Part shown: positions 5,692 to 58,345 of the stretch, piece by piece | Numbering within the stretch: the first letter of the stretch is position 1 | How the letters are laid out: each line of letters opens with the position of its first letter | Assembly (NCBI GenBank): GCA_022605405.1 | Contig: JABYQQ010000005.1 | Coordinates: 1,302,001-1,366,000, forward strand | Source of the DNA: Earliella scabrosa | Lineage: Eukaryota > Basidiomycota > Agaricomycetes > Polyporales > Polyporaceae | Length of the DNA: 64,000 bases | Reading direction: 5' to 3' | The notes under the pieces: generated by a model | Databases searched by the model: none | What the model was told of the DNA's origin: nothing | The model's input: only the letters and a program-made list of their open reading frames with translations | Program-made: the position numbers and the translations under genes

Positions 5692-7669
5692 CTATGCACC
5701 ATTCTGGTACTCCTCCTTCACGCGTTTCGGAGGAGCGGGTGGTGCTTGGTTGCTGGCTACTTGGATAGGCGGTCGAGCACCATGCTCCGTCTTGACTCTA
5801 ACGTCTCGCGTACCTACAAATCTCTCTTCCTCGGGCCGTTTGTTGTCAACAGAATTACGCTGCCCATCTGCAGTCGTTCCGTTGCCTGTATGGCGGGGAT
5901 CCTTGTCAGTCATTGCAAAAGATGGTGATTTAGAGATCGAACCGGATCGGGGCGCGGGAAGTCTGCCATTTGTAGCCATGAAGGCCTCCGATGCTGAGCC
6001 TAATGTCTGTCTATCCTCGCCTTTCACCGCTCGGGCTGTAGAGGAACTGAGTACACCGTAAGAAAGGCAGTTTCGTATGATAACCCACCTTGCGAGCCTT
6101 CATCAGCTTGGTTGGCAGCTCCATGGCGTAGCGCGGTAGTCACACTGCGTGTTAGCTCCTCTACCTTGAGCTTCCTATCATCGCTATGCACAGCAAGTCC
6201 GCTCGTAGAGGGCTCAGCTGTATTCGCTGTCCTGGAACGAGATTGCAACTTTTCGACGGTCGATCTGAACGCGTCGGAAGGCGGATAAGATTGCTCTTCG
6301 TGTTTGACCCCTTCGGACTTCACGCGCATGTCCGACGCTGAATCTTCTCTCTTCGGCTTGGGTTCATAGTCATCTTCCGGCGTATTGAATGTAGAGGTTA
6401 CGGCTGCGCCGGGTGTTACAGAACCGGACTGGTGTATGTGCCGTACGAGCTGCCGGAAGGGTTCCGAGGGTGCGTATGGCTCCTCTCTCTTCGGCTTGAT
6501 GTCCTGAGTAAGAGGGTTCGAGTTGCTGACATCCGGGACACGTGGATCCGGGTCTGCACCTTGTGGCTGTTGGAGCCGTTCGATCTGAGACCTGAATGCA
6601 TTGGAGGGTTCATAGGGATGTTCCTCTTTGATGCGAGCCTTCACATCTGTCTTTGACTCCTGTCGGAGAGACTCAGAGGCATCTGCCTCTGTGGGGATCC
6701 GAGACACGTCAAGGCAAACAGGTCAACAAACAACGCCTGCACTAACCTTCATCATACGGATCTAATTTGCCGAGCCTGCTTGAACCAGAGGGCTGCAGTC
6801 GTTGTCCCGCCGCTTCGCGCCTTGCCGCCTCTGCCGCTGCTTCAGCGTTACTGGCCGTAGTCGCCGTCAACTGCGTGGGGTGTTGGTAGGGTGTGAACCG
6901 ACTCTGCGACGACCGCATTCGTCAGTAAGCCTTATCTCACGGTGAACGTTTCACAGCATACCGTGTCGGGGATCGGAGTGGGTTGACGTGTCGGAGGCAA
7001 TGGCAGAGCCAGATCGGCACAGTTTTTCCCTCTGGGGGTTGCATAACTGACGTGTGGGTACGGATACACGACGGGGAACTCGAGCTTTGCGGGCGGGTCA
7101 CCGCTTACAGTTGGGTAGGTCTCCTGCCAGTTGTCTGTACGTGTCAGTGGTATATGGTCCATATATTCCATGCGTCTCTACGGCCAATCAAGAATTACCT
7201 ACGTTTGGCTGGGTCGCCCTTGTTGCGGTAATTGTATGCAAAGACGTACGAGACGCGGTCGATGTCTTTCTTGTCTCCCCTTGCCAGGAATCTCCTCCAC
7301 GGGTGAGCGCCGACGATATTGACGATGTCTGCCTCCTGCGGGAGCTGTACTATGACCTCATTGCGCTGTGTATGTGCTTCAGTGATCAGACAGTACTAGC
7401 AACTCTTGAAGTGCGTCGAGAGAGCGACAAGCCAGATCTTTGGGCAGCATCACACGCCAGTTATGCCTTGTACATACCGTGTTAACATGGTATATGCATT
7501 CAACTTCAAGGGTCTTGCCCAGCATGAATCGCACCCATGCAGACAGATGGTTGAAGAACATGAGTTGGCGATCCTTGCCTGTCGCGTTGCCGGGCCATGG
7601 GTCTTCAATCACGATGTACTTGCACCCAGGGTCGTCGTCGTATGGAGGCCCACGCTTGAGCTTTTGCAT
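5692..7669 (-). CDS. Conserved hypothetical protein with internal repeats
   Basis: Spliced gene of unknown function. The first exon starts MQKLKRGPPYDDDPGCKYIV and continues IEDPWPG and MFFNHLSAWVRFMLGKTLEV. Following exons give IVNIVGAHPWRRFLARGDKK, then DRVSYVFAYNY, then a proline-rich part (LALPLPPTRQPTPIPDT). This N-terminal part looks like a folded domain found in Agaricomycete proteins of unknown function. The C-terminal half is acidic/basic low complexity with a motif repeated three times: PYEPSNAFRSQIERLQ, PYAPSEPFRQLVRHI and SYPPSDAFRSTVEKLQ, each preceded by K-rich-E-E residues, and a possible fourth degenerate copy (LGSASEAF). It ends EEYQNGA at 5692-5694. A start further upstream cannot be excluded. 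The repeats suggest short linear binding motifs in a disordered tail. Confidence 0.7.
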
Positions 7670-20753: not shown

Positions 20754-21177
20754 GTGTGGCAACGTTTGTGAGCGGAGGATGAGAATCGAGGGGTAGTGCA
20801 CGAGGCCGGGAAGAAGTCCTAGAGAGAAGCGAGACGCGAGGACGAGAAAGGAGGTACGGGAAGGGGCGTGTAGGGAGGCAAGGTGCTTGCTGGTGCTTGT
20901 TGGCTTAGGGCCACTGGCGGACACTGGACGCGGTCTCTCAGTTGTGACGCGGTGGGCGCCTAAGGCGATCGGCGGGCCGGAGCCGGGAGCTGAAGGGCAC
21001 TCGCGAATCGCGACTCGGAGTGTGGCTCCTGGCCTGCTTCTGGCTCCCTCCGCCTCCTCCTCCTCCTCCTCCTCCTCCCTGCTAACTTATGTTTCGCTCT
21101 GCTTGACTTACTCTCTCTCTCGCTTGCTTTGCATGTATAATTCCTGCTAGATCTCGCCTACACATACCGAATTTGCC
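20754..21177. promoter_or_regulatory. Divergent SEC12 / NIPA promoter with CTC repeat
   Basis: 424 bases between start codons. It contains a pyrimidine tract on the plus strand, including a CCT/CTC repeat at about 21048-21079 and a short CT repeat near 21112. Polypyrimidine tracts just upstream of the ATG are common in fungal promoters; the microsatellite may vary between strains. Confidence 0.5.
21048..21079 (+). repeat. (CCT)n microsatellite
   Basis: About nine consecutive CCT units with one flanking imperfect unit in the promoter of the NIPA gene. Confidence 0.8.
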
Positions 21178-23241
21178 ATGCACATACGACTACCACACAT
21201 ACACGGTCTCGAAGACATCCCAGACGGCATCGATCTCCCGCAAATATCGCCCTCTACCGCCGCGGGAATATGCGTCGCAATCGCAGGCAACATTCTCATC
21301 TCGCTTGCCTTGAATTGTCAGAAGCTCGCGCACCGACGTCTCGAAAGAGAGCGCGAAGCGGCCCCGCGGCCACTCAAGCCTACAAGCACCAATGGCCATA
21401 TCCTAGGCGACTCGCAACAGCATGAATACTATGGCGCATCAACCCAGAGCTTACCAACGCCTGTACCCCCGGAAAGAGTGCCCTTGCTGGAATCTGCCCT
21501 TGGCACTGAGGCGGACGCGCGGTCAGAGAGACGGTGGTTCTTTTTCCGCAGGACGCCGTACCGATACCACGCGCACGAGGCCGACAGGTCCCATCTCGCG
21601 AGTACCCATGCCCTCATGCCTGTCGAGGCCGTTACTGTTCAACCACATGCTCCTGCATCCCATAACAATAGCGAGCGGAAGCATCTGAACGAAGGCGCAA
21701 GCGAGAGCGACTACCTGAGGTCTAAGCTATGGTACATCCATCCATCTTTCCCTCTGTGCTATCCTCTAACCCATAGGCAGGTGGCTGGGCTTCCTGCTCA
21801 TGAACCTTGGCGAGATGGGCAATTTTATATCGTACGCCTTCGCCCCCGCGTCTGTGGTGGCGCCTCTGGGAACTGTACGTATACTTCCATCTACTTGCTG
21901 AACATATGATCAGACCTTGCCGGTAGTTTGCTCTTATCGCGAACTGCATATTTGCTCCTATAATGCTCCAAGAGCGTTTTCGCAAGGTCAGTGTGTCATC
22001 AGGACACGGTCGCGCTTCCCCTCTGAACTGTCTTTCTAGCGCGACTTCTTGGGTATCATAATTGCCGTCCTTGGTGCAGTCACTGTTGTACTATCAGCCA
22101 ACCCCTCGGATACCAGGTTGGACCCGGACGCTCTCATCAAGGCTATCACTCAGAGGCCGTTCGAGATATATGCGCTTGTGTATGTTGTTGGTATAGTCAT
22201 CCTGTCCGGCCTGTCGGAGGGACCAGCAGGAAAGCGTTGGGTCTACGTCGATGTCGGACTATGCGCGCTCTTTGGTGAGGTGATTACGGCAGAAACTTCG
22301 GATCGCAGCACTCATCACTTCTGCAGGAGGGTTCACCGTGCTTTCGACCAAGGCAGTGTCTACGCTGTTGACCATGGAATGGCTCCAGATCTTCAAGGAA
22401 TGGATCACGTACCCTGTCATCGCTGTTCGTAGTCTGATGCATATATGTGTGGACATTTGCCTAACTGTCAAGTCAGGTGCTGCTCGGTACGGGCATAGGA
22501 CAAATACGGTACCTCAACCGTGCTCTCATGCGGTTCGACAGCAAGGTGCGTGCGCTGGACAGGGAAGCTGCCATATAGCCGTAGTGTAACGTAATCTGGT
22601 CAACCGAACAGATCGTCGTCCCTACGCAGTTCGTCATGTTCAACCTCTCCGCCATTGTCGGCTCCGCGCTGCTCTACGGCGACTTCAAGAAAGCGACGTT
22701 CCACCAGCTCGTCACGTTCCTTTACGGCTGCGGTGCGACGTTCGCCGGCGTCTTCATCATCGCATGGGCGCCGGGGTCAATGCCGCCTTCGACCGAGGAT
22801 GAAGATGACGATGACGACGGGGATGACGACACCATGCACACGTCCACGCTACCCCCGAGCCGGAGCGACCCAGCCTCTTCCGTCGCGGCGACACTGAGCG
22901 AAGACGGCGTGCCGTCGAGCGTGCGCACGATGAAGATGGGCAGCCTCGCGCGACGCAACCGGGCGACGCTCGTCATCCCCGACGGCACGAACCCAGACGG
23001 CTCGCCCATCCTGCGCCACCGCCACAGCATCGTGAGCCTCTACGGGTTCTCGCCGGCCCAGGTAAGCTAAGCGGTCTCTAGTCTCCATCGGCAGTCGTCA
23101 TCGCGGACTGACAATGCCAAATGGTGCTTCGCCCATCAACAGCGCGTACTGCTGATGAGCTCACCGCCCCGAGACGAGTTCGTCCGGCCGAACATGCAGG
23201 ACCGGAAAAAGCCTCTCTTCCTCCTACCACCACCATGGTGA
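21178..23241 (+). CDS. NIPA-type magnesium transporter, truncated by LINE
   Basis: Multi-pass protein of the NIPA (DUF803) family, proposed Mg2+ transporters within the DMT superfamily. Exon 1 gives a first helix (TAAGICVAIAGNILISLALN) and a long hydrophilic insert of about 130 residues. Then come WLGFLLMNLGEMGNFISYAF, VVAPLGTFALIANCIFAPIM, LQERFRKRDFLGIIIAVLGA, CALFGGFTVLSTKAVSTLL, and QFVMFNLSAIVGSALLYGDF, all characteristic. The tail is acidic then arginine-rich. An 81-base intron (23062-23142) precedes the last exon, which reads RVLLMSSPPRDEFVRPNMQD before hitting the LINE after codon CGG at 23203-23205. Translation would run into element sequence for 11 codons to a TGA at 23239-23241, so the last 76 native residues are replaced. 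All membrane segments are kept. Confidence 0.85.
23193..23205 (+). repeat. Target-site duplication, left copy
   Basis: The 13 bases catgcaggaccgg stand immediately before the 5' end of the LINE and again, identical, at 34801-34813 after its poly(A). Two more matching A bases precede both copies, but on the right these may belong to the poly(A). Confidence 0.93.
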
Positions 23242-23250
23242 ACTTTCCCA

Positions 23251-23278
23251 CGGTCCTGGCAATGAGGCGCCAGGACCG
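23251..23278 (+). repeat. Perfect 10-bp hairpin near LINE 5' end
   Basis: Arms cggtcctggc (23251-23260) and gccaggaccg (23269-23278) are exact inverse complements around an 8-base loop, starting 45 bases inside the element. The right arm shares caggaccgg with the target-site duplication. Confidence 0.7.
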
Positions 23279-24205
23279 GGAAACTTGTATTAAACGCAAC
23301 ACTTTGAGCTCATGAGGAGCGATAATATGCGAAGTGCGTGTGCACGCTGTGAGAACAGCTGAGCCTGGTGAAGGCGCGGGGCATGGCCCACAACAGACGA
23401 CTCTAAGGTCGTCGACGTGGCGAGAGCCAGGACTGAGACTCAAACAAGGAGCATCGGATCCCCAGGCGGGGCGCAGGATGGAGAGAAGAGAGGAACCTGC
23501 ATACGGCGAAAAAGCACGCACTCCCAAGCCAATCCACGACGAACGGCAAGACCGGATGAGCTGGCGGGAAGCCCAAGACATGAGACCCCCTGGCGCTAAA
23601 CTGACGGAGCATGCGGGGCGCCGATGCTGACTAACCCCGAGATAACGCAGGCCGCCCATACTCCCAGCTTGCCCAGAGTCCCCCAAGCTCCAATATTGTG
23701 GGGAAGAAGACACAATGGAACTGGCTGCACCAAAGCCTACCCAACGACTGAGAACCCCAAACGAGAACTGAAGCAAGCGAGCGAGCGAGCGAGCAAGCAA
23801 CATATAAGCAATGGATGAGATAAAGCCCCAAAGACTTCACAAGAGAACTCAAACACAAGCCCCTGCTCAAGTGTGCACATAACATGATGACCAAATGACG
23901 CGATCAGGAAACACTCCATTCCCCAATGCCCCCCTGACCCACCCAGCCCCAGGCTAAGTATGAGATGGGCCCTAATGTTAGCAACTACCAAAGCGCTCCG
24001 CCCAACCCTCTTCCCCCAGTCTCCTTGCCAAAGACAGAACTTCTCTGAGCATCCCTGAATCATACATTCCTTGAAGCGAACAATCAGGCTGGTACCTGAG
24101 CTAGCAGCACCAGTGTTCAAAACCTAAGGAGTGGCAGGACACACACACTATCCAGACCTCCAGCAAAGTCCCCTCAGACTCCACGACTCCCAACAACAAC
24201 AACAA

Positions 24206-24250
24206 CCCCTCCCCCCTCCCCCAAAGACCCTAACCCTACCCCACGCCCCA
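24206..24250 (-). repeat. C-rich tract with telomere-like CCCTAACCCTA; G4 on minus strand
   Basis: The plus strand has runs of four to six C, then ccctaaccctacccc. The reverse strand therefore has at least five runs of three or more G with short spacers, a strong G-quadruplex pattern, and includes two adjoining TTAGGG-like units. It sits just before the 257-codon ORF of the LINE leader, preceded by a (CAA)n stretch. Confidence 0.7.
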
Positions 24251-24284
24251 CACACACCGCCCAACACACACCCTGCCTGCTGTA

Positions 24285-25058
24285 ATGACTGCTGGAGCGC
24301 AAAGGACGACGGGGAACCTTGACAGTGCGCCAACACCAAGACCCGTTGAAGTCCTTGCACACTGGAAAGGGTATGGCTATCCGGCGCCGACAAGTGACCA
24401 CCCGGTGGGGACAAACCACATCTACGAGATCGCGAGCGACATCAACGTAGACCTAAAGAGAGGAGAAAAGGTCAGACTCATCGCAACATCTCCAACCCCA
24501 TACCACTCGCCTGAAGCCCCGAGAAAGACATCCGACACATACGACCCACACGTAGTCGGAACGGTGGAAGATGTAACGGGCCCACATGAAGGAGTGACGA
24601 TAGTTGGAGTCAAGAACCTCTGCCCGAAGAACAAGGTCCGGAGAGTGGAGGTAATCATCCCAAGGACGCGAAGGAAAGTAGCGCGAGGGACAAAGCGCCT
24701 CTGGGTGGAGGAGGAGACAGACGGCCAGGAGGCGACGGGGAGAACCGGCCCATCGGACCAGCCCGGAAGACCGGGAGACACGGGAGAGCAGATGAAGCCG
24801 GAAATCAGGGACACGTGCGCCCGGACCTGCGGAGCGGAAGCCTGCGCGCTTGAGACCCATGACTACGGAGAAGGGGGAGCAGGACTGGGAGAATACGCCC
24901 TGCCGTGGTCCATAGATGGGAGGAAGGTAGCCAGCGAGAGGCGGAGAAAAAGAAAAGAGAGAGAAAGAGAGACTGAGCGAGGAGGAAGCGAAGAGGAAGG
25001 AGAGAGAGAGGACTGCAGCCGCAAGCGCGGACAGAAGGAAAAGACGGCGGACAAATAG
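24285..25058 (+). CDS. Uncharacterised leader ORF of the LINE (ORF0-like)
   Basis: A 257-codon open frame in the long leader of the element, on the coding strand. Residues about 20-145 look like a folded, strand-rich domain: VEVLAHWKGYGYPAPTSD, IYEIASDINVDLKRGEKVRL, VVGTVEDVTGPHEGVTIVGV and KVRRVEVIIPR. The pattern is loosely like small beta-barrels (SH3/KOW or chromo-like), but this is only an impression. The C-terminal third is very charged (RRKRKERERETERGGSEEEG) and could bind nucleic acid. I do not recognise it. It ends about 0.9 kb before ORF1. Chance is possible in a GC- and purine-rich stretch, yet the switch from globular-looking to charged composition argues for a real protein. Confidence 0.45.
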   Translation: MTAGAQRTTGNLDSAPTPRPVEVLAHWKGYGYPAPTSDHPVGTNHIYEIASDINVDLKRGEKVRLIATSPTPYHSPEAPRKTSDTYDPHVVGTVEDVTGPHEGVTIVGVKNLCPKNKVRRVEVIIPRTRRKVARGTKRLWVEEETDGQEATGRTGPSDQPGRPGDTGEQMKPEIRDTCARTCGAEACALETHDYGEGGAGLGEYALPWSIDGRKVASERRRKRKERERETERGGSEEEGEREDCSRKRGQKEKTADK

Positions 25059-25714
25059 GATATGATCAATGTCTCGGAGGACGAGAAAACGCATGCACAC
25101 GACCGTAACAGCCGCGGAAACTGCCTAAGAAGACAGGAAAAGACATAAAGCCCCGGAAACTGCAGGACAAGCCCAACAAGACATGCGACCAAACTAGGAA
25201 AGTAATTCTGAAGCCAAGCCAACGCCCGCTCAACAGAGACGGGCGCGCACGACCTTCCCCCGCGCGGGCCGACCCGACAAGACGACGGGGACAGACAGGA
25301 GGAATGAAAAGAGAGCCTAGAAGCAAAGAAAAAAGACGGCGGCTCGGATGACGAGTTTGGCGCTCGTCGGCAAGGAAAGGTTTCCCTACCTAATTGGGCA
25401 AGCACACCCAATTAAGAAACTCAAGGGAAACAAACCACAGGACGCGAAAAACGAGCTCGCGATCGCGACCCCGAAAGTGCAGGGCCTGTAAAGCCTGCCC
25501 TGGACAAAGAACGACAGGAAACCGCGATGCGAGAAACGATAGCAAGCCCGATGACGCTCCCCAGGGCGCGGGAAAGCGATGGACGAAGAGAGTAGAGACC
25601 CGAGGCAAGGCGCCCTCCCGCGCCCTCGCCCTTGCCTGAGCCTCCTCCCCTCCCACTACCCACCCCTGCAGCGCGAGGAGACGCGACCCACCCCTGAGCT
25701 CTAAGAGCCACGCC

Positions 25715-26119
25715 ATGACTCCCCACCCGACCACGACGTACAGAACGACTGGAGGGAGAACCAAGACTCCCCCGCCAGCCCAAGGGAAGATCCTCGTCCC
25801 TGCGACGTCGCAACCAGCGGAAGACGTGCCGTACGCTACCTCTGACGACGAAGGGAGCCACATGCTCAAGGAGCAGGAGAAACTGAGGAAGGAAAGGAGC
25901 GGGGACGCGAGCGTTGGTGGAACCTGGATGGTTGCTCAGAGGAGCACAGGGCGTGAACAAACGGTGAGCCTCCCTCATGCATCGAGAAGCAATGCGTACA
26001 AACCGCACCCCCTACCCTATCCTTCCACCCCTCCCAACGCTGGCGCCACAGTCGTCCCTCCCTCCGAGCTCCCCAGCGCTGGCACAAAACAAAAACCGCT
26101 ACCGCGTCCTAGCGATTAG
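25715..26119 (+). other. Open frame overlapping the start of ORF1
   Basis: A 134-codon frame (start MTPHPTTTYRTTGG) overlaps the first 143 bases of ORF1 in another phase. It is Pro/Ser/Thr-rich and holds PYATSDDEGSHMLKEQEKLR, in keeping with a disordered ORF1-type N-terminus. It could be the true beginning of ORF1 joined by a +1 shift near the A-rich cacaaaacaaaaacc at about 26086-26100, or simply a shadow. Confidence 0.3.
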
Positions 26120-29009
26120 CGACGACGACGAAGATCGGGCCGCGTCCCCCCTAGCAAACTCCACCACTAGAGAGAGCAGAGCACCCACCGAAACTCTGGG
26201 CCCCGTACGCACGACAGCGGGGACGGAGCAAATGTGGGCCGGGCTGGAGACACCGCCTCCTATAGGACCTGGCGGCCTGGACGGCGACAAGCAAGTGGGA
26301 AGCAGACCTGAAGGAGCAACGACGGATGAGTCCGACACAACGATCAGGAAAGATCGAAGGAAACCAGGCGAGCGGACTCACAACCAGGGGAGTGCGCGCG
26401 ATGACGGTCCTGGGGGAGGAACCCCTGCACTGAAGCACGGCAAAGGCGGGGACCGCGGAGAACGCGCCGACGAAGGAGACAACGACGACGACGGCAGCGG
26501 TGAAGGCAACGAACAAAGGAGCGCGCGCAAAGGAGGCCCCGAAGAACGCGACAAGGGAAGAAAAAACCCCGCAGGGCCCGGTAACACCATCATAATCAAC
26601 GGTGGTGGCGATGACGATCGGATCGACACCGAACCGCAGAACGATCCCTCGAGAAGAGAAGAACGCGCCCGCCGGAGCCTAGGACCTGATCGCCGCCAAT
26701 CCCGACCCCCCCAGGACACAACATCGGGAGAGCCACGACGAGGAGCATCCAACAGGACAACGTCAGTCGTCATCATCCCCCAGAAGCGCCCCCACCATTT
26801 CTCCCCGCAGCCGGACGAAGACGACAGGGAACTCCCGAGACTCCGTCTCACCTCCCCCCCGCCGCCGAAGAGCGTCAGACTCCCCTCGTTCAAGGAGACC
26901 TTCCGGAACCCGTGGGTCCAGGAGAACGAACCCGGGAACAAGACCCAGCCCCCCTACCTCTTCGATCCGGTGGCTGCATCCACGCCGAGACCGCACAACA
27001 GGGCTGCGCCGTCAGCGAGCTACGCTAAGACGAGCCCGAACTGCTGGGACGAACGAGAAGGCCTAAGCGCCCAACTGAACCGAGCCAGCAGCGAGGCCTA
27101 CCAAACCCCGCTCCCCTCATTCCAGCCACCGCTCCACCTCCAAACGTACCCGAACAGCCCGGCAAGCTGCGCAATGGACGTCGACGGCCCCGATACATCC
27201 CCTGGCCCCAGCGAGCGGGAGAGAGCCGAAAGCGCCCGTACGGACCCAAACCTCGACTCGCACCCCTTGCTCCAGCGAAACTCGCGCGACTGGTCGATCG
27301 GGGCCCCGGATGAAAGACACGAGACGGAGCTTGGGGAGCGAAGGAAGAAGGCACTCACCAACGTCTTAGACAGGACGGACGAGCGCCGCCGAAGCACCCA
27401 GCGCGAGTACGACGAGAGGAGCCAGACGCCGATGGCGCCCCGTGCGTACCTCGAGCCACGAGACGCCCCGCGTGGAAAGGAGAAGTACCGGCCAATCCCG
27501 GGGACGAGGGCTGAGCAATACCTGAGAGAGAGAGAAAAGGAGGAGATGAAGAAGGAGCTCGGGGCAGGAATGGAGACCGAAAGGACGTACCTCTGGAAAG
27601 AACACACCGTCGAACACCCCCAAGCCCCGCACCCCCAGGAGATGATCCGTGGCGGATACGTCCGGGCGGAGAACCCTGCGATGGGTGACTATGATAGACG
27701 CGTGGACGAGAACGGTGCTGCAGAACGGAGACCTCGCAAGGACGACCTCGAGATCATCAGAGCCGGGAGAGCGAGGTTGCAGACAGAGGAAGAAGAAGGT
27801 GAAGTCCTTGAAGGCGACGAATCGGCAGAGTGCAGACCCACCTTCCTCGACGACCAGCGGGAGATCGCTGACGAAACCTTCACCCCGATCCCGTACAACG
27901 GACGCGGAGACCCCGTGATACACCACTTCGACCCGGAGGATCTCCTGAGGATGGCGACCAGACCGTGGATGGAAGACCTATGGAACGCGCCGAGGAACAC
28001 GGTGATAGTCGTTGAGATCTTCAATGGCTGGTACACGACCATCCCGGAGAAGAACCGAACCACTGCCCAGCACATCAGCGAGGTAGTGACGAAGATCACT
28101 GGACTCACCGATTTCGACGTCATCCCGGTCGAGCCGATCGAGACAAAGACCCCGACGCCTGGCAGACAGATGCCAACAGCATGGGTGATCAAGAGACTCA
28201 CCCCGAGAGCGACGGAAACAATCCTGCACCGCAAAGTCTACTCGCTCCGCAAGATCACCATCATGCCTGCGCCTCGGAGCATCACCATAAGCGGGTTCCT
28301 CTTCACGCTGGACGGATACCTGACGAAAAACATCGTCGCAATCGAGGACGGGATCAAGAGCGTCCTGCGCCGGGACGACTTCGCATCCATGATCGCGGAG
28401 ATGGCCAGGGGAAATCAAGCCTTCAACGGCCTCACGATACAAGGGGCTGTCGAGCGCACAGTCGACTCCCTCCGCGTCGAGATCCTTGAGCTGAGCGAAC
28501 GCAATTTCGTCGCGAACGCCTACATCGTCCCGCCTACGAGGAAGGTCGAGCTATGGAGGAAGTTCGTGATTGAACTTCGTCGCCTATCGTACGGCAACTA
28601 CAAAAACGGAGTTGGAAGAGTCCGCGTACCACCCTTCCTCTACCTAGGCTGCAAAGCTGCTGACCACCCCTCCCAACTGTGCCCCTTCCCCAACATGCCC
28701 GACTGGAATGGCGCGAAAGCGCGCACTGACGAGGAGGCGACGGAACTGGAGAGGAGGGATATGGAAGCGAAGGAGAGGATTGACCGACGACAAGCACAGG
28801 CGATGGGCCAAGCGAGAGGACGAGGAAGCGCGATGACATCCGAGAGCAGGCGCAACGACCTGACCATTGGAGAGGGCGGGACGTACGGCTACCAACGCAG
28901 GGGAGGAGGGGGCTATCAGACGGGACGAGGACGAGGCTTCGGCCGAATCCCCCGAAACCGGATGCCCCCGCCCCCGACCCAGAGAGGCTGGTACGACAGA
29001 CCGCTCTAG
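25977..29009 (+). CDS. LINE ORF1: RNA-binding-type protein
   Basis: A 1010-residue protein expected to bind element RNA and form the RNP. The first 600 residues are disordered, rich in Arg/Glu/Asp/Pro, with KNRYRVLAISDDDED near residue 40. A folded region follows from about residue 640: TVIVVEIFNGWYTTIPEKNR, TTAQHISEVVTKITGLTDFD, and NFVANAYIVPPTRKVELWRK. Then a degenerate zinc knuckle: Y889-x2-C892-x4-H897-x4-C902, where the first cysteine of CCHC is tyrosine, followed by PFPNMPDWNG. The end is RGG-like (RRGGGGYQTGRGRGFGR), a common RNA-binding tail. This combination is known to me from ORF1-like proteins scattered in Agaricomycete genomes. The ATG at 25977 is the first in this frame. Confidence 0.85.
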   Translation: MHREAMRTNRTPYPILPPLPTLAPQSSLPPSSPALAQNKNRYRVLAISDDDEDRAASPLANSTTRESRAPTETLGPVRTTAGTEQMWAGLETPPPIGPGGLDGDKQVGSRPEGATTDESDTTIRKDRRKPGERTHNQGSARDDGPGGGTPALKHGKGGDRGERADEGDNDDDGSGEGNEQRSARKGGPEERDKGRKNPAGPGNTIIINGGGDDDRIDTEPQNDPSRREERARRSLGPDRRQSRPPQDTTSGEPRRGASNRTTSVVIIPQKRPHHFSPQPDEDDRELPRLRLTSPPPPKSVRLPSFKETFRNPWVQENEPGNKTQPPYLFDPVAASTPRPHNRAAPSASYAKTSPNCWDEREGLSAQLNRASSEAYQTPLPSFQPPLHLQTYPNSPASCAMDVDGPDTSPGPSERERAESARTDPNLDSHPLLQRNSRDWSIGAPDERHETELGERRKKALTNVLDRTDERRRSTQREYDERSQTPMAPRAYLEPRDAPRGKEKYRPIPGTRAEQYLREREKEEMKKELGAGMETERTYLWKEHTVEHPQAPHPQEMIRGGYVRAENPAMGDYDRRVDENGAAERRPRKDDLEIIRAGRARLQTEEEEGEVLEGDESAECRPTFLDDQREIADETFTPIPYNGRGDPVIHHFDPEDLLRMATRPWMEDLWNAPRNTVIVVEIFNGWYTTIPEKNRTTAQHISEVVTKITGLTDFDVIPVEPIETKTPTPGRQMPTAWVIKRLTPRATETILHRKVYSLRKITIMPAPRSITISGFLFTLDGYLTKNIVAIEDGIKSVLRRDDFASMIAEMARGNQAFNGLTIQGAVERTVDSLRVEILELSERNFVANAYIVPPTRKVELWRKFVIELRRLSYGNYKNGVGRVRVPPFLYLGCKAADHPSQLCPFPNMPDWNGAKARTDEEATELERRDMEAKERIDRRQAQAMGQARGRGSAMTSESRRNDLTIGEGGTYGYQRRGGGGYQTGRGRGFGRIPRNRMPPPPTQRGWYDRPL

Positions 29010-29375
29010 AGGGTCGTATGGTAAAGGACGGCAGACATGACGAGGACGAAGCTGAGCAGCGCACCATGATGAGGACGGCGAATGTATTTCTTGACGAATT
29101 TTTTGAGACCTGAGAAAAGCGACCGTGGAGAGGAACGGAAAAACGGAAGAGAGCGAACATGACATAAGCCGGTAAGCAGAGCAGAGTATGGAAACCTACG
29201 GCACAACCGGCACGGCAACACAGGACCGAGGTGGCCGACGGTCCGTGTAACCGAGCGGGCGAAGCGCGGGACGCCTGCATTTCTCGGAGGCCCCTCCTAG
29301 AGCCCAAATATACTGGCCCCGGCGCAGGAAAGCTCTGGGAGGCCACACACACATCGGTGAGCCTATTTAGGCGAG

Positions 29376-32300
29376 GTGAGCCGAGCTTTAGCGAAGCGGA
29401 GGAATGCGAACAGACCCGCCCTGGAGCCGCACCCCGCACACCACCCGAGGCGGAGGGAACACCGTCTAGAGCCAGGCTATGGTTGTAACCTGGCTGACAT
29501 CCCAACCCCCACAATTGCACACAACGTTACCATAACTGAAACGGAACACACACACGGACCTGGACTACAGCGCCCCCAGGCCCCGAGAGGCCAAGCCGGT
29601 GAGAATGTCGACCGCGAAGCCGAAGACCGGGGCCAGGGAATCGGAGACATAGGCGAGCAGAGCGGGCGCGACGGAGAAGAAGGGGAAGATGACCCTGAGA
29701 AACAACAAACTGAGGGACAGAAGCGAAAGAGGAGAAAAAGGAAGAGAGCAAAGAAGGCCAACAAGGCAAAGAAAACAAGGGCGAGAATCAAGGTAGCTAC
29801 CCTCAACATGAGAGGAGTAGGAGGAAATGGAGAAGGAGGAATCCCTGAGAAGTGGCTGCGCATAAACCAACTCATCCGAGACAAAAAGATAGCCGTCCTA
29901 GCGCTGCAAGAAACGCACCTGACTCAGGAGAGAATTGACAACCTAAATGAGCTCTTCGCGGCCACTATGAAAGTCTTCGGAAGCGCGGACGAGCAGAACG
30001 CAACTGCTGCAAGAGGAGTGGCCTTTGCGATAAACAAAAGGCTCCTAGATACAGAGATGGTCAGCACAAAGACCCTAATACAGGGGCGAGCCATGGAGGC
30101 AAAATTCATGTGGTCAACCACCAGGGAGATGAAAATACTGAATGTATACGCACCTAACGACGCAAGAGAGAATGCTGAATTCTGGAACGAGATAAGCCAA
30201 ACCTACGCAGACCCAAATAACGGGCGACCCACGATGATACTTGGTGACTGCAACATGGTGGAGAGCCCGATGGACAGACTCCCTGCGAGAAAAGACGCAG
30301 ACGAACAAGCAGACGCGCTGAGAGCGCTAATGAGACAACTCGACCTGGTGGACGGGATGAGAGAGCGAAACCCTGCGACAAGAATGTTCACATACCTGCA
30401 AGCCGCGACTGGAAGTCAGTCAAGAATAGACAGAATATACGCTGCACGCGATATCATGAAGAGCACGGCAGACTGGAAGATCGACGCACCCGGAATAAGA
30501 ACGGACCACCAACTGGTCTCCATGTCAGTCGCGAACTACGGAGCGCCCCACACTGGAGAAGGGAGATGGACCATCCCAAGCGCCCTGCTGTCAGACAAAA
30601 TATTCATAGAAGAAATGAAACAGTTGGGCATGAAAGCCCAAACTGAGATTGAGAATCTTAAAGAGAGAACAGAACGGGACAACATACAAAGGATCTACGA
30701 CAGATTCAAGTACAAACTGCGCGACACCGCCAGAGCGAGGGCGAAGGCTGCAATCCCCAAGCTAGACCGAGAGATCAACGCCCTCAAAAAAGACCTCAAA
30801 ACAACCCTAAACAAAGAAAAAGAAGCGGACTCTGAACCGAGCATAAGCAATGCAGCCATCCTACAAGAGAGACTGGCAAAACTGACGGAAAGACGGTTTG
30901 GACAAAAACGGAGCGCGGTAGCGGCGAACGACTGGGCGAAAGGGGAAACGGTATGCAAATATTGGACAAAAATGAACGCTACCCCCCTCCCGAGCACAAC
31001 AATAAATGAACTGGAGGACCCAAATGCCCCCGAAGGAGGGCCCAAACGGTACACCAGCAATACGGAGAGAATGACTGAGATCGCCAAAGAACACTACGAC
31101 CGACTTCAGGAGGATCCAGACCTGGAACCTACCGAACACGAGAGAGTGACGAACGAAGTACTTGAACTAGTGGACGCAAGGATGAGCACAAGGGAGAAAG
31201 GGGAAATGGCCAAGAGGACAACGAACAGCGAGGTTGAGACTGCAATTAGAGAAGCAGCCACGAGTAAAGCCGCGGGGCTGGATGGAATCCCCGCGGAAAT
31301 ATGGAAAACCCTCCTCAAGCAAATGGAGAGCGACAGAAAAGCTGAACGCCCTGTCCTGAATATTGTGACCATGCTCAGAAAGGTATTCAACGACATCGAG
31401 GAGCACGGAGTGGTGAAACTGACGTCCTTCACGGACGGATGGATATGCCCAATCTACAAGAAAAAGGACACCCGCCAGATCGTCAACTATAGACCGATCA
31501 CCCTCCTCAACGCCGACTACAAAATTTACACTAGAATCCTAGCGAACAAAATAGCCAGAGTAGCGGACAAACTCATCCACCCTGACCAGGCGGGTTTCGT
31601 CCCGGGGAGACGGATTTTTGACCACATCAAGCTGACAAAACTAATGATCGACTATGCGGAAGCTGAAGAAATAAACGGGATGATTGTAGCCCTAGACCAA
31701 GAGAAAGCTTACGACAGAATCAACCACAACTACCTGTGGAGGACCCTAGAACGCTTCAACTTCCCAAACAATTTCATTAGGACGGTTCGGAACCTGTATG
31801 AAGCGGCGGAGAGCCTGGTGATAGTCAACGGCGAGAACAGCCGAATGTTCAGAATAACGAGAGGAGTACGACAAGGCGACCCAATGTCATGCCTACTATT
31901 CAATCTCGCAATCGAACCTCTGGCGTGTGCGCTGAGAAAGTCGGACCTTAAGGGACTGGAAATCCCTGGATTAAGGGAGAGACTGATTGCAACACTATTC
32001 GCGGACGACACGACTGTCTACTTGAGTGAACATGATGATTACGAGGCCCTCGTGGCAATACTAGATAAATGGTGCAAGGCGTCTAGAGCGAAGTTCAACG
32101 TTGAGAAGACGCAACACATACCGATCGGCGAGAAGAACTTCCGGACGGAGCTAACAGAAGGAAGAAGCACGAGCAAGCTGGCAGCTACCCTGCCAGAAGG
32201 GGCCGAAATAGTCGAAGACGGCCAATCCATTAGAGCCCTAGGCGCCTGGATAGGAAACAACATTGACAATGGAGCACCGTGGACGCCGATGATCGACACA

Positions 32301-34610
32301 ATAGAGAGACACCTCAAAAAATGGAGCTTGAGGAACCCGACAATGCACGGGCGAAGGCTCGCTGTGGGAATGGAAGTGGCCGGAAGAACGCAGTTCCTGA
32401 CAGCCGCACAAACCATGCCTCCCAAGGTCGAACAGAAGATCATCAAGATTATAATAAACTTTGTATGGAAAGATGACCGGCATCCGCGAATTAGTAGAGA
32501 GACACTGTATAAACCAATAAGCGAAGGAGGACTGGGACTAGTAGACATCGCCGCGAGGAACGAAGCGATAGACCTCATGTGGCTCCGAAGCTACCTAACG
32601 CTCGGAGAACGGAGACCGAAATGGGCCTACGTGGCGGACGCCCTGATTGCGAGGGCAGTGATCGCCGCAGATAGAAACGTGGAGGAGGCAGCTAAAGTAA
32701 ACCTCTTCCTCCAAACATGGAAAGTTAACACGAGGAGAGGAAGAGACCTCCCGGAAGACCTGAGGCGAATGCTGAAGGCCGGCGAAAAGTACAAAGTCCG
32801 AATTGAAGCCCCCAACCCGGCTAAGAAGATGAAACTGGCCCTTCCCCTCTGGTACCACATAGGACGAAGTGAGGGAAGGTCAACTGCAAACTCAAAAGCC
32901 AGCAAATGCCTAAGACAAAACCACGGGGTAGCAACAGTCCTAGACGCGACAAGAATAACCGCGAGACTCCGAAACAACGGAGAGGCAGGAGAGCACCGGG
33001 AAAACCCTAGGTGCACGTGCAAAGACTGCATAACGGACAGGAGAGACCGAGGATGCGACAACCCGGACAGATGCGCCGGCGCGGCGAAAAAGCTCCTCGG
33101 GAAGATCATCCCACTCTGGGCCCCGGAGGACGATACGCCTGAGGATGGGCTAACACTGACGAAGCGAAGAGAAGGAAGGAATGAGAGGGAAAGAGCGAGG
33201 GAGGGAAGAGTAATATTCAACCCAACGCTCACAGACAAGGACGACCTCACCGATATCCTGAGAGCTTTCGTTGACGAGAAGCCTGGAGAGACAAGAACGC
33301 GAGCGGCGAGAAGACCGCCGCGAACACACAACGTGTGGGAGGAAGAGACCGAGGTCTTCACAGATGGCTCCGCAATGAATAACGGAGCGGCCAACGCTTC
33401 GGCGGGAGCTGGGATTTGGTTTGGACCGAACGACCTGAGAAACAAAGCGGTTAGAGTCCCGGGGAAGAACCAGACAAATCAAGCGGCTGAGATCTACGCG
33501 GTAGCTGTAGCGGCCGCCACGGTCCCGCCCTTCGCCCCCCTGCATCTAGTGACGGACTCGACACATGTGATGGACGGGCTGACAAAGCACGTAAACGAAT
33601 GGGAAGCTAGAGGATGGACCGGAATAAAAAATGGGCCCCTATTTGCAGAGGCTACAGCGAGACTGAGAGCACGCTCGGCCCAGACAACGCTTCGATGGGT
33701 CAAAGGCCATAACGGTGACGTGGGAAACGAAGGAGCAGACAAACTAGCCAAAATAGGAACGGCGCAAAACGAAGACGAAGGGAGGATCCCCCCTGCACCA
33801 TGGGAATACCTGAGGAGGGGGATCAAACTAACCGAAATGACGCAAAGACTGGCCTACCGCAGAATCAAGATGACGGAAAAAGGGGAGCAAAGGAGAGCAA
33901 CAACGCTCACTGTAGACCGGGTGCTGGCGACCCTGGAAAGCGACCTCAAACTGTACCTGGACCCCCCGTCGCTATGGAAGGCGATCAGAGGGAATTTAGT
34001 GGCCCGCAGAATAAGAGATTTCATGTGGAAAGCAACGCATGACGCCCTCAGAGTAGGGAAATTTTGGGAGAACATACCGGGGTACGAAACAAGAGCAACA
34101 TGCGGGGTATGCGGAACCCTAGAAACGGTCGAACACATCCTGACGGAATGTGAAGCCCCGGGGCAGAGAGAGGTGTGGACCATGGTCAAGAAGGCGCTTG
34201 CCCTCAAGGGAGCCCCAAACTTCCCCCTCACGTACGGCACAATACTAGGTTCCCCAGCAATAACACTTGCAAAGCTAAGAGAAAAAGAAAATAAGCCGCT
34301 TGACAGACTATGCAAGATCCTAATCCCCGAAGCAGCTCACTTCATATGGAAAATTAGATGCGAGCGGGTCATACGAGACGGGAATGACCCCACCAAACGC
34401 CTGACGGAAAAAGCCATACGAGCAAGGTGGACGAGCGCAATGCAGCGCCGAGCGCAGCTTGACTGGGTCGAGGCAAACCGCAAGCTGAGGAAAAAACCGA
34501 CTGCAGCGGTGACGATCCTAGACACGTGGAGAGGGATCGAGTGGAACGGAGGGAGAACAAACTCGAGGGTTTTAGTGGGTACACCAGAGGCGACGACTGG
34601 GGTTGGCTAG
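29376..34610 (+). CDS. LINE ORF2: endonuclease, reverse transcriptase, RNase H
   Basis: A 1744-residue polyprotein. After a lysine/arginine-rich N-terminus (RKRRKRKRAKKANKAKK) the AP-type endonuclease starts at LNMRG (residues 143-147) with LQETHL, ILNVYAPND, ILGDCNMVE, SRIDRIY and TDHQLV. The reverse transcriptase shows VNYRPITLLNADYKIYTRIL, DQAGFVPGRRIFD, VALDQEKAYDRI, RGVRQGDPMSCLLFNLAIEP and the active-site FADD at 875-878. Between RT and RNase H is a cysteine cluster, CTCKDCITDRRDRGCDNPDRC-type spacing, C-x-C-x2-C-x8-C-x5-C. RNase H begins at FTDGS (about 1328) with E in AAEIYAV, D in VTDSTHV and D in NEGADKLA, so all four acidic residues are present. A CCHC motif follows (C1576-x2-C1579-x7-H1587-x4-C1592). 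No stop or frameshift was seen, so the enzyme may be active. The N-terminal start is uncertain. Confidence 0.93.
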   Translation: MSRALAKRRNANRPALEPHPAHHPRRREHRLEPGYGCNLADIPTPTIAHNVTITETEHTHGPGLQRPQAPRGQAGENVDREAEDRGQGIGDIGEQSGRDGEEGEDDPEKQQTEGQKRKRRKRKRAKKANKAKKTRARIKVATLNMRGVGGNGEGGIPEKWLRINQLIRDKKIAVLALQETHLTQERIDNLNELFAATMKVFGSADEQNATAARGVAFAINKRLLDTEMVSTKTLIQGRAMEAKFMWSTTREMKILNVYAPNDARENAEFWNEISQTYADPNNGRPTMILGDCNMVESPMDRLPARKDADEQADALRALMRQLDLVDGMRERNPATRMFTYLQAATGSQSRIDRIYAARDIMKSTADWKIDAPGIRTDHQLVSMSVANYGAPHTGEGRWTIPSALLSDKIFIEEMKQLGMKAQTEIENLKERTERDNIQRIYDRFKYKLRDTARARAKAAIPKLDREINALKKDLKTTLNKEKEADSEPSISNAAILQERLAKLTERRFGQKRSAVAANDWAKGETVCKYWTKMNATPLPSTTINELEDPNAPEGGPKRYTSNTERMTEIAKEHYDRLQEDPDLEPTEHERVTNEVLELVDARMSTREKGEMAKRTTNSEVETAIREAATSKAAGLDGIPAEIWKTLLKQMESDRKAERPVLNIVTMLRKVFNDIEEHGVVKLTSFTDGWICPIYKKKDTRQIVNYRPITLLNADYKIYTRILANKIARVADKLIHPDQAGFVPGRRIFDHIKLTKLMIDYAEAEEINGMIVALDQEKAYDRINHNYLWRTLERFNFPNNFIRTVRNLYEAAESLVIVNGENSRMFRITRGVRQGDPMSCLLFNLAIEPLACALRKSDLKGLEIPGLRERLIATLFADDTTVYLSEHDDYEALVAILDKWCKASRAKFNVEKTQHIPIGEKNFRTELTEGRSTSKLAATLPEGAEIVEDGQSIRALGAWIGNNIDNGAPWTPMIDTIERHLKKWSLRNPTMHGRRLAVGMEVAGRTQFLTAAQTMPPKVEQKIIKIIINFVWKDDRHPRISRETLYKPISEGGLGLVDIAARNEAIDLMWLRSYLTLGERRPKWAYVADALIARAVIAADRNVEEAAKVNLFLQTWKVNTRRGRDLPEDLRRMLKAGEKYKVRIEAPNPAKKMKLALPLWYHIGRSEGRSTANSKASKCLRQNHGVATVLDATRITARLRNNGEAGEHRENPRCTCKDCITDRRDRGCDNPDRCAGAAKKLLGKIIPLWAPEDDTPEDGLTLTKRREGRNERERAREGRVIFNPTLTDKDDLTDILRAFVDEKPGETRTRAARRPPRTHNVWEEETEVFTDGSAMNNGAANASAGAGIWFGPNDLRNKAVRVPGKNQTNQAAEIYAVAVAAATVPPFAPLHLVTDSTHVMDGLTKHVNEWEARGWTGIKNGPLFAEATARLRARSAQTTLRWVKGHNGDVGNEGADKLAKIGTAQNEDEGRIPPAPWEYLRRGIKLTEMTQRLAYRRIKMTEKGEQRRATTLTVDRVLATLESDLKLYLDPPSLWKAIRGNLVARRIRDFMWKATHDALRVGKFWENIPGYETRATCGVCGTLETVEHILTECEAPGQREVWTMVKKALALKGAPNFPLTYGTILGSPAITLAKLREKENKPLDRLCKILIPEAAHFIWKIRCERVIRDGNDPTKRLTEKAIRARWTSAMQRRAQLDWVEANRKLRKKPTAAVTILDTWRGIEWNGGRTNSRVLVGTPEATTGVG

Positions 34611-34764
34611 ACGCCCCCCTACACCAGCCGAAGGAAGTCCCACACTACAGCGAAAGCTGTGTGCGTAAAGCATTTCCCTCGACGTGGTGCCCGAAGGATC
34701 TCCCCTTCAAAACCTGCTTAAACCTGACGGGGGGCTATAACTGGCCCTGCCCCAGGCATGCACC

Positions 34765-34766
<2 letters not shown>

Positions 34767-34800
<34 letters not shown>
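34767..34800 (+). repeat. Poly(A) tail of the LINE
   Basis: 34 uninterrupted adenines immediately before the right target-site duplication. A long pure run suggests recent insertion, as such runs shorten and mutate. Confidence 0.97.
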
Positions 34801-34801
<1 letters not shown>

Positions 34802-34813
34802 ATGCAGGACCGG
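34801..34813 (+). repeat. Target-site duplication, right copy
   Basis: Identical 13-base copy of 23193-23205; the NIPA reading frame resumes in phase directly after it (GAC at 34814). Confidence 0.93.
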
Positions 34814-35044
34814 GACCCGGAGCGCGACGCGGGCGTGTCGCCAGAGTCGTTCGGCCGGCGCCGCGCGGTCAACTGGCTCGACGAGGACTTCAGCAGGCAG
34901 ACGAGCCCGCGCGCATCGCGGCGGTACGGCGCCACGTCCAATGCGACATCGAGGGAACAGAGCAGGGCGGGCGAGCGTGTTCCTGTCGCGGCTAGCCTGA
35001 GCAGGAGCAGAAGCCGCAGCGCGAGTCCGGATCCATTCACCTAG
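34802..35044 (+). pseudogene. Severed 3' end of the NIPA gene last exon
   Basis: 81 codons including the stop (TAG at 35042-35044), starting with the duplicated ATG CAG GAC CGG and continuing DPERDAGVSPESFGRRRAVN and VNWLDEDFSRQTSPRASRR to the end SRSASPDPFT. It is in the same phase as the last NIPA exon left of the LINE, so the two parts were one exon before insertion. The Ser/Arg-rich tail is a likely phosphorylated cytosolic end. With an internal ATG at its front it could still be translated alone from a LINE-derived or read-through transcript, but there is no evidence of this. Confidence 0.88.
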
Positions 35045-35727
35045 GCGAGGGTGCCGGGGCCTGTAGGTGTTTGTGCGGAAAGAAGTCGAAGATGTGCAGG
35101 AGGATGTCTGATGTAGGTTGATGCAGGGGTATATGATTGCTCGATGAAGGACAGTACTAAAAATATACAGTAATTTAGTGCACGTACTGTGTCTTAACCA
35201 TATGCTGCCTGTGCGTCACCGTTTCACATGCACCTCACAGCCTTCAGGCACACGAGTATGTGATCGTTCATCCAGACATTGGCTTCAAAGTCCAAGGCAG
35301 GGTCCATGGACAAGTCAGGACGTGGCTAGATATGTGCATGCGAAAACACTAGACGATATGGACCTATGTAAGATATACGCCAGACATCGCGAAGCGAGGG
35401 AAGATACAGATAACCCAAGGGAATACAGCCAGATGTGTGATGTGCGAGGGCGGAAGAGATGGCAGCAACAGGATGGGATTCGGACTGCGGGATAGCATGC
35501 TGAACAAAGTACTGACGAAGCCGGGAGTGGGACACACCCGACTTCGCAATAAGATAGCCCACCCACGCCGAGATGCTCGACAAACTCCTGCTGCCCATCA
35601 ACAAGACAACACCCTGCTACCTCGGACCCTGAGTTGACGTATGGCTGGACGATGGTGGACTCCTCCGATGCAACGTACACGACTCTAAGGGTGGCGTGAT
35701 GACGAGGCACTAGGCTCGAGCCGTAGC
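35045..35727. other. Intergenic, 3' of NIPA
   Basis: Nothing coding recognised in 680 bases; the original NIPA 3' UTR and terminator must lie at the left end. Confidence 0.5.
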
Positions 35728-36507
35728 CTACGCAGCGGCCAGAGGCTGGACCTCCGAGTTGTCGTTATCATTGCCCTTTGAGGGCGCGGGTTCCTCTGGG
35801 ACGATGGCCATCCGGGAGGGCATGGCGCGATGGTCACGCCAGACCCGGTCGTGGATAGAGGGGGTTTCAGCATCCTGAGCGTCCACTCTTGCACCGATGA
35901 ATTCTCTGTCAACCGCGACCGCACGGGTCAGGGAAGAGAAATCAATCTCGTTGTCGGGGACGAGACCGAACTCGAGGTGGGGGTGGTTGCTCGCCACGCG
36001 GTGCAACACGACGTGCGAGGCCATGATAAAGAACAGCACGAAGAGGAGGAAGATCGTGCGGATGCGGCTCCTCAAAGAGAAGGCGCTGCGGTCATCAAAG
36101 GAAGTCTTGAAGGGCGTCGCAGGCAGTTGGATCTGCGACGGCAGGTACGATCGGAACGACGGAACCAGCGTGGACAATCGCTGACCAAACGTGGGGCTCG
36201 GGGGAGGTGCAATGAATGCGATGAAAAACTCGCTCTCGAACACCGGGGACGACGGCGTGACGATGATGGCAGGGAGCTCGGCCTTCTCGTCAACTAGAGG
36301 CAGGGTGAGGTCTGGGGTACAACATCAGTGTCACGGTCGTGTGTTCACGTTGCATCGCGCGATGATTTCGTACGTACCCAACGGCGCAGGGATAAGCGTG
36401 TAGTCAAGCCTCTGGGGCAGGCGGTTAAGACGAGGGGCTACACCGTAGTATTCACCACGAACGGCGAGGTAACGGCCATGAGCTCTCGACTTCCTGCAGG
36501 AGGGCAT
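35728..36507 (-). CDS. Hypothetical single-pass membrane protein
   Basis: Two exons. Exon 1 runs MPSCRKSRAHGRYLAVRGEY to RLDYTLIPAPL; an intron beginning GTACGTACG (near 36378) and ending CCCAG joins it to DLTLPLVDEKAELPAIIVTP. Exon 2 has FESEFFIAFIAPPPSPTFGQ, then a single hydrophobic helix preceded by arginines (SLRSRIRTIFLLFVLFFIMA), and a soluble tail ending EVQPLAAA at 35728-35730. The positive residues before the helix suggest the N-terminus faces the cytosol. An in-frame TGA lies just upstream of the chosen ATG, fixing the start unless there is another exon. I do not recognise the family, though it has the look of a conserved Agaricomycete protein. Divergent from the WDR89-like gene. 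Confidence 0.65.
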
Positions 36508-57343: not shown

Positions 57344-58345
57344 TCAGCTGGTGGAGAGGACGGGCTGCCAGGTGCCGGGGGAGATCTCCTCCAGGTGGTA
57401 GAGGATCACACGGTCCCAGGACACAGGGATCATGTTTGCCTGCAACACAGAGACGGAGCGTAAGTGGCGCAGCTTCGAAAAATGGAGGCACGGGACAGCT
57501 CTGCGGCTGCGGGCGCAACAGAACGCGTGCTTACCTGCAAGAAGTGCACGCACGCCCGTGCGATCCTCCGCGCGAGCGTCTGGAGCTCGACTCGCCCGTC
57601 GTACGTGTCGGCCGGGAGCTCGTATGTCATCGAGTTGTACCCTGTCCACTACCGTCGTCGAACGTCGAGGATGAGCACAGGGCAGGTATTGCACAGCCAG
57701 TATATGGGGGAGACTCACCCTGATTTTGAGGATGATACGGCCGCGTCCATCGGCGTTCAGGTCGTAGAGGGAGTACTGGTCGTTGCTGCTGAGGTGCGCG
57801 TCGGCCATGGCCTCACCGAGCGTGATGCCGCTCCGGAAGCCGCCCTTGCGCTTGAACTTGATCACGCTGGAGCTCATTCGACGATAGTCGCCGAGAGCTG
57901 GTCGGCCCATGCGAGAGAGGGAGCGCGAGAGGGAGCGAGACATGGAGGACGAGCGGCGGTGGCGACCGCTGTAGCCCCGGTCAGCATAGTAAGGGTCTCG
58001 GAGGTCGAAGTCGTCGTACGCTGCAAGCCAATGCGTTAGCATACGTCGAGGCACAGACAGTGGTGTAGGAGCGCTCACCTCGGCCGTATTGGCTGACGGT
58101 ACGTTGAGGGGTGTACACGGGGTAGCCGCCCGTTGCATAGTTCTGCTTGGGCCGCGTAAGCACTGTGACGAACTCGGGCGCGAGAGAGGGCCACTTACTG
58201 TTTCGTACACGCCGCCATATGCCGGGTCGGCGAATCCGTACTCAGTAGGGTGGACGCCATACATGGGTCCATGAGAGAGTGAGTGTTGCATGGGGTAACC
58301 AGCGGCGAACTGGTTGTTGTACGGCTCGTACGAGGTGTACGCCAT
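57344..58345 (-). CDS. DUF6741-like protein of unknown function
   Basis: Begins MAYTSYEPYNNQFAAGYPMQ with a Tyr/Gly/Pro-rich leader, then a basic Ser/Arg patch (RHRRSSSMSRSLSRSLSRMG), and the conserved part: FKRKGGFRSGITLGEAMADA, LSSNDQYSLYDLNADGRGRI, GRGRIILKIR, then LTYELPADTYDGRVELQTLA, RRIARACVHFLQ, and NMIPVSWDRVILYHLEEISP ending GTWQPVLSTS. This C-terminal region is very familiar in Agaricomycete proteins of unknown function (DUF6741 from memory). Four introns. The SR-rich patch and C-terminal domain suggest a nuclear or RNA-linked role only by composition. No catalytic residues are known for it. Confidence 0.75.
   Translation of the reverse strand: MAYTSYEPYNNQFAAGYPMQHSLSHGPMYGVHPTEYGFADPAYGGVYETVSGPLSRPSSSQCLRGPSRTMQRAATPCTPLNVPSANTAEVSAPTPLSVPRRMLTHWLAAYDDFDLRDPYYADRGYSGRHRRSSSMSRSLSRSLSRMGRPALGDYRRMSSSVIKFKRKGGFRSGITLGEAMADAHLSSNDQYSLYDLNADGRGRIILKIRVSLPHILAVQYLPCAHPRRSTTVVDRVQLDDIRAPGRHVRRASRAPDARAEDRTGVRALLAGKHAFCCARSRRAVPCLHFSKLRHLRSVSVLQANMIPVSWDRVILYHLEEISPGTWQPVLSTS

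Follow-up and report, generated by a model that had tools for sequence, protein, structure and literature searches.

A recent full-length LINE insertion in the terminal exon of a NIPA gene of Earliella scabrosa, with a polymerase frame lacking an AUG ahead of its endonuclease

Results and Discussion

The Interrupted NIPA Gene

The window, i.e., the whole stretch of 64,000 nucleotides analyzed here (G000:C5:1302001-1366000, from an assembly of 51.67 Mb in 48 contigs), contains a gene of the NIPA family of magnesium transporters whose last exon is interrupted by an element of 11,595 bp (23206-34800). The features of the gene and of the element are collected in Table 1. A single full-length relative of the element was found in the same genome, on contig C4, and serves as the reference for all comparisons below (the C4 element).

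Table 1. Features of the interrupted NIPA gene and of the inserted element (window coordinates).
Feature	Position	Strand	Basis or remark
NIPA gene ahead of the insertion (exons 1-8)	21178..23205	+	Gene model, seven GT-AG introns; PF05653
Target-site duplication (TSD), left copy	23193..23205	+	Exact repeat of CATGCAGGACCGG
Element 5' region	23206..24284	+	87% match to the C4 copy over bases 2-47; both copies start alike
ORF1, 257 aa	24285..25058	+	Open frame; dN/dS 0.245 against C4
Candidate gag 5' exon, 83 codons	25715..25963	+	Ends ...ACG before GTGAGC; comparison with C4
Putative 88-nt intron (GTGAGC...CACAG)	25964..26051	+	106 nt in C4; conserved at the ends, diverged in between
Gag-like ORF (1010 aa counted from its first ATG, 1068 aa together with the 5' exon)	25977..29009	+	Knuckle in C-terminal part
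Tyr codon in place of the first knuckle Cys of C4	28641..28643	+	Comparison with C4
gag-pol junction block, non-coding and conserved; possible RNA structure	29194..29513	+	Alignment with C4
Pol frame, open over 1744 aa from a non-conserved GTG	29376..34610	+	
AP-type endonuclease	29859..30464	+	PF03372; homology to L1 ORF2p from 29784
Reverse transcriptase	31458..32120	+	PF00078; FADD box at 31998
RNase H	33342..33758	+	PF00075
zf-RVT-like stretch	33978..34157	+	PF13966, below its cut-off
3' UTR	34611..34766	+	Much of it highly conserved with C4
Poly(A), 34 A's	34767..34800	+	
TSD, right copy	34801..34813	+	Exact repeat of CATGCAGGACCGG
Remainder of the NIPA last exon, 76 residues and stop, in phase	34814..35044	+	Gene model

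Our model of the host gene has eight exons, separated by introns of 49-81 nt, with coding sequence from the start at 21178 to 23205 and from 34814 to the stop at 35044. When the flanks are joined, they encode a coherent protein of 617 aa, in which Mg_trans_NIPA (PF05653) matches residues 166-420, i.e., profile positions 33-289 of 295, with E = 5.6e-59 and 200.2 bits at a cut-off of 26.2. A first-pass annotation had described the host frame as breaking at the left junction of an element of about 11.6 kb and resuming in phase at the right one, and both the frame and the element length are borne out by the model. A CCT microsatellite (21047-21078) lies upstream of the start codon.

The Pfam domain is complete before the insertion, which falls after residue 541 and cuts off the 76 C-terminal residues. 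The claimed insertion into the last exon stands, with less damage to the gene than it implied, since the domain ends well before residue 541. The filled allele is 552 aa long, composed of 541 residues of its own and 11 read from the element; it would retain the whole transporter domain, while its tail loses 76 residues and gains the 11 from the element. As only the tail is cut, the gene may survive the insertion into its exon. In the same genome, 20 pieces match PF05653, 19 of which are marked as exceeding the cut-off (some only together with their neighbours); three belong to the interrupted gene and the rest are located on contigs C1, C3, C7, and C10. Given these further pieces, other members of the NIPA family could buffer a defect.

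Class and Architecture of the Element

The three open ORFs of the first-pass annotation are present; they measure 257, 1010, and 1744 aa, the last counted from a GTG. Exo_endo_phos (E = 1.1e-7), RVT_1 (E = 3.3e-37), and RNase_H exceed their cut-offs in pol, and zf-RVT stays below; motifs such as the FADD box were also located. ORF1 and the gag-like ORF have no Pfam match at E ≤ 0.1, and the structure of ORF1 predicted from the single sequence reaches a mean pLDDT of 39.7. Direct-repeat families in 22000-36000 number at least 60; the 20 largest include no long terminal repeats, the longest repeat among them measuring 30 nt. Endonuclease (EN) and reverse transcriptase (RT) in the same ORF, the poly(A), the TSD, and the lack of long terminal repeats among the families examined identify the element as a LINE (non-LTR retrotransposon). 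An LTR or DNA transposon was rejected, given the EN-RT ORF and no terminal repeats among these families.

The best solved-structure match of pol is L1 ORF2p (E = 1.2e-63 across EN and RT), which is not to be read as clade membership, few LINE clades being represented in the PDB. Human L1 shares with the window element the AP endonuclease and RT, aligned over pol residues 137-1059, as well as the poly(A) and the TSD. The window element differs from it by an RNase H in pol and by a third ORF, neither of which is known from human L1.

Another point of comparison is LINE-Tad-like-RtPc5 of Paracoccidioides, a member of the Tad1 clade with 5905 bp and two ORFs of 572 and 1312 aa according to PMC4427930. 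As in the window element, a single ORF encodes EN, RT, and RNase H, an upstream ORF lacks known relatives, and the 3' end is poly(A); in contrast, the window element has 11.6 kb and three ORFs. The non-LTR clades Inkcap and Deceiver, named in PMC9674265, PMC3411680, and PMC4427930, are reported from mushrooms.

The 5' tip of the element (23206-23252) is conserved, and both copies have an ATG there whose context is ACCACCACCATGG. The filled NIPA allele takes its 11 extra residues and its stop from this tip.

Relatives in the Genome

Copies were counted with three DNA queries, namely the 3' end, 3.3 kb from the 5' end, and the gag-pol junction, and the counts are lower bounds: the 3' end matched at least three places, the junction at least two, and the 5' query, besides itself, at least six pieces, all on C4. 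None of the three queries found a close parent copy; hence the source copy was not seen, and the element cannot be dated by how far it has diverged from one.

The C4 element (reverse strand, 2252723-2264355) is 11,633 bp long, is delimited by a perfect 16-bp TSD and A27, and agrees with the window element in architecture and in both ends, with ORF1, gag, junction, and UTRs in common. It differs in that its gag is split over two frames and in that a pol AUG and a canonical CCHC knuckle are present. Both elements align over 11,299 bases at 66.7% identity, and their pol frames are 77% identical over 1659 codons. Because the ends are perfect and the identity is only 66.7%, each full-length copy appears to represent an old lineage of its own. 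A piece of a PF01425 amidase is located about 0.4 kb upstream of the C4 element on the same strand, and the flanking translations read as if this element, too, had apparently inserted within an exon, that of the amidase.

The remaining relative, on C11 (about 1633990-1634790), is a 5'-truncated, diverged remnant of the pol C terminus and the 3' end. Within 19 kb, pol matches only from residue 1536 and DNA only near the 3' end, while gag or ORF1 matches and a run of 10 A's are absent. Among viral contigs, one stretch matched a pattern and none encoded a relative of the element.

Comparison with C4 yields dN/dS ratios of 0.245 for ORF1, 0.426 for the candidate gag exon, 0.42 and 0.20 for the N and C parts of gag (separated on account of the frame break in C4), and 0.081 for pol; all are rough, as dS is near saturation (0.92 in the short gag exon, 1.2-2.0 in the other frames). 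Based on its ratio, ORF1 is very likely translated.

Insertion Mechanism and Age

The 13-base repeats reported in the first-pass annotation are exact, and neither strand of the window holds a further exact copy of CATGCAGGACCGG. Leftwards, the match can be extended to 15 bases, with two A's common to duplication and tail and hence ambiguous. The 34-A tail is pure, as had been noted, and constitutes the only run of at least 12 A's or T's in the window.

Target-primed reverse transcription is the established insertion mechanism of LINEs. TSD, poly(A), the EN, RT, and RNase H domains, a 5' end in common with the C4 insertion, and a host exon that resumes in phase together support the original reading of the locus as a target-primed LINE insertion, and we are confident that the locus represents a full-length, recent LINE insertion by this mechanism into the NIPA last exon, in sense orientation. 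In this scheme, the element endonuclease would have cut the bottom strand where the duplicated sequence starts on the left, and the nick would have primed reverse transcription of the poly(A) RNA. The duplication would then stem from a cut in the second strand at a distance of 13-15 bp. The event itself is ordinary in mechanism. As a clean recent LINE in a coding exon, the insertion constitutes a presence/absence marker for typing strains and nuclei.

Recency, also claimed at the outset, is upheld by the open frames, the pure A34, and the perfect TSD. If neutral decay is assumed, 2875 open codons limit the age (95%) to 0.2-1.05% substitutions per site; the assumed indel rates run from 0.15 to 0 per substitution, and transition weights between 1 and 4 were used. 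The perfection of the TSD alone was discarded as a clock, since 13 bases carry too little information.

Start and Integrity of gag

The conserved gag-frame peptide SSLPPSSPA begins before any ATG common to both copies in that frame, and the shared Met (MWA...) comes later. Gag may thus begin in a separate 5' exon upstream of 25977. The candidate exon has an ATG in both copies, 38 of the first 47 aligned residues are identical with C4, its second half is poorly conserved, and it ends at ACAAACGGTGAGC, identical in both. Past a diverged stretch of 88 nt in the window and 106 nt in C4, an AG is followed by the near-identical TCGTCCCTCCC... in the gag frame.

The stretch 25964-26051 fits a spliceosomal intron; read in the exon frame, it shows a dN/dS of 1.05 over 29 codons. 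A +1 frameshift fits it as well: the frame offset is the same after the 88 nt of the window copy as after the 106 nt of C4, and neither stretch closes the exon frame. The host NIPA introns are shorter than either putative gag intron, and such an intron would pose the question of how it is retained through an RNA cycle.

The element had been called apparently intact. This holds insofar as the three ORFs contain no stop or frameshift; it is weakened by the pol AUG, which is missing before the endonuclease, and by the knuckle of gag, where a Cys is replaced. In C4, the knuckle reads C-x2-C-x4-H-x4-C, its first Cys being Tyr in the window copy; gag as such has no Pfam match. The canonical knuckle in C4 suggests that the lineage of the window copy lost the Cys, the direction of change not being provable from one relative. 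With its gag over two frames, the C4 element is likewise not pristine.

In the window copy, the pol frame has its last stop at 29358, and no in-frame ATG follows before 29784, where endonuclease homology sets in. The next one, at 29808, is located inside the endonuclease motif. The C4 element, on the other hand, has a pol ATG at 7591 (reverse-strand numbering), which heads a frame of 1663 aa. Both 25977 and 29376 were rejected as true starts, as they are not conserved with C4. Due to the lack of a pol AUG before the endonuclease and the missing knuckle Cys, the window copy may not be self-sufficient; it is recent, but not demonstrably active. Nor is it demonstrably polymorphic, as had been suggested, the 2-kb right flank being single in this assembly.

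The gag-pol Junction Block

Conservation of the junction block is firm. Aligned with C4 over 29194-29515, 281 of 325 columns are identical (about 86%), with 39 substitutions, five single-base gaps, and a run of 57 bases without any difference. The block is far more conserved than the coding DNA next to it and than the synonymous sites of the ORFs, where differences (pS) of 0.53-0.70 are near saturation. The single-base gaps disfavour one conserved reading frame in the junction. They also speak against a shared frame for an antisense ORF (28534-29520, minus strand, 328 aa), which was rejected as a gene; in C4, an antisense frame likewise seems to be open across the matching stretch. Gene conversion between the two elements is a possible cause of the conserved junction.

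A conserved RNA fold of the block is moderately supported by the two copies. Their joint fold, chosen to fit both rows, has 81 pairs, five with compensatory changes and none broken, and scores z = -4.1 against 60 column shuffles. The compensatory count alone is no proof, since the less conserved element 5' end (143 of 233 columns identical), used as control, gives seven compensatory pairs and none broken. When the fold was derived from the window copy alone, three compensatory changes were observed against 0.55 expected (P = 0.013), and 15 broken pairs against 15.1; other single-copy folds show 2-3 compensatory and 2-13 broken pairs. Single-sequence stability of the junction is not unusual (z = -0.87, 19 of 100 shuffles as good). 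In an Rfam search of 23206-34830, the block matched no family at E ≤ 10; elsewhere, there were four weak matches, all on the minus strand and below the gathering score.

Alternative Explanations

An assembly artefact that misjoined the element into NIPA may be considered, as a single assembly is available and the 2-kb right flank of the insertion occurs once in it. A misjoin is not expected to leave a poly(A) tail next to a perfect TSD, and the host frame resumes in phase, so we regard such an artefact as extremely improbable. Hardly more credible is an old insertion in which selection on the element at this locus has preserved the open frames. No close copies are available to date against, which would leave room for it, but a pure A34 and a perfect TSD are features for which no selection is expected.

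The single-copy state might reflect a recent arrival from another lineage by introgression or horizontal transfer, rather than a source copy lost by segregation. One copy, one relative at 66.7% identity, one truncated fragment, and no close copies found would agree with this. However, the lineage is resident, given that ORF1, gag, junction, and UTRs are common to C4, and a foreign source is unneeded: in Marasmius oreades, LINE-6 and LINE-7 are reported as single copies that are active masters and have moved (PMC9674265, section 7). Single copies are on record for a Deceiver element in Laccaria bicolor (PMC3411680) and for MarorLINE-6 (PMC9674265, section 7). We hold a foreign arrival to be unlikely. 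Somewhat less unlikely, though still doubtful, is a copy made in trans, whose RNA was reverse-transcribed by the proteins of another element, its own pol being unstartable and its knuckle altered. The absent AUG, the Tyr for Cys, and the presence of both features in C4 would fit. Against it, the three ORFs are free of stops and frameshifts, pol shows a dN/dS of 0.08 along both lineages, and non-AUG, internal, or spliced pol starts are possible. PMC9674265 describes LINE insertions of M. oreades as varying in length at the 5' end, in contrast to the two full-length insertions found here.

Expression of pol

The junction block ends about 60 nt before the protein conservation of pol sets in (CAG at 29568-29570, followed by phase-0 pol codons, in both copies). 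We tentatively propose, as one possibility that we do not favour over all others, that pol is expressed by way of a structured RNA or of splicing, without an ordinary AUG. The block of about 320 nt might provide internal entry, or it might be a processing element. Alternatively, the gag 5' exon, which ends at 25963 in phase 0, might have two splice partners: 26052, giving gag, and the CAG whose last base is 29570, giving pol, the latter in phase 0 in both copies; the unspliced RNA would then be the template for insertion. The junction block and the possible gag intron thus raise the question of how a three-ORF retrotransposon would start its polymerase without AUG, and we consider the expression plan of the element to be of more interest than its insertion.

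Other Features of the Window

No tRNAs were found. Three of four neighbouring ORFs have no Pfam match. A 333-aa ORF on the minus strand (57344-58345) matches DUF6741 (E = 1.9e-37).
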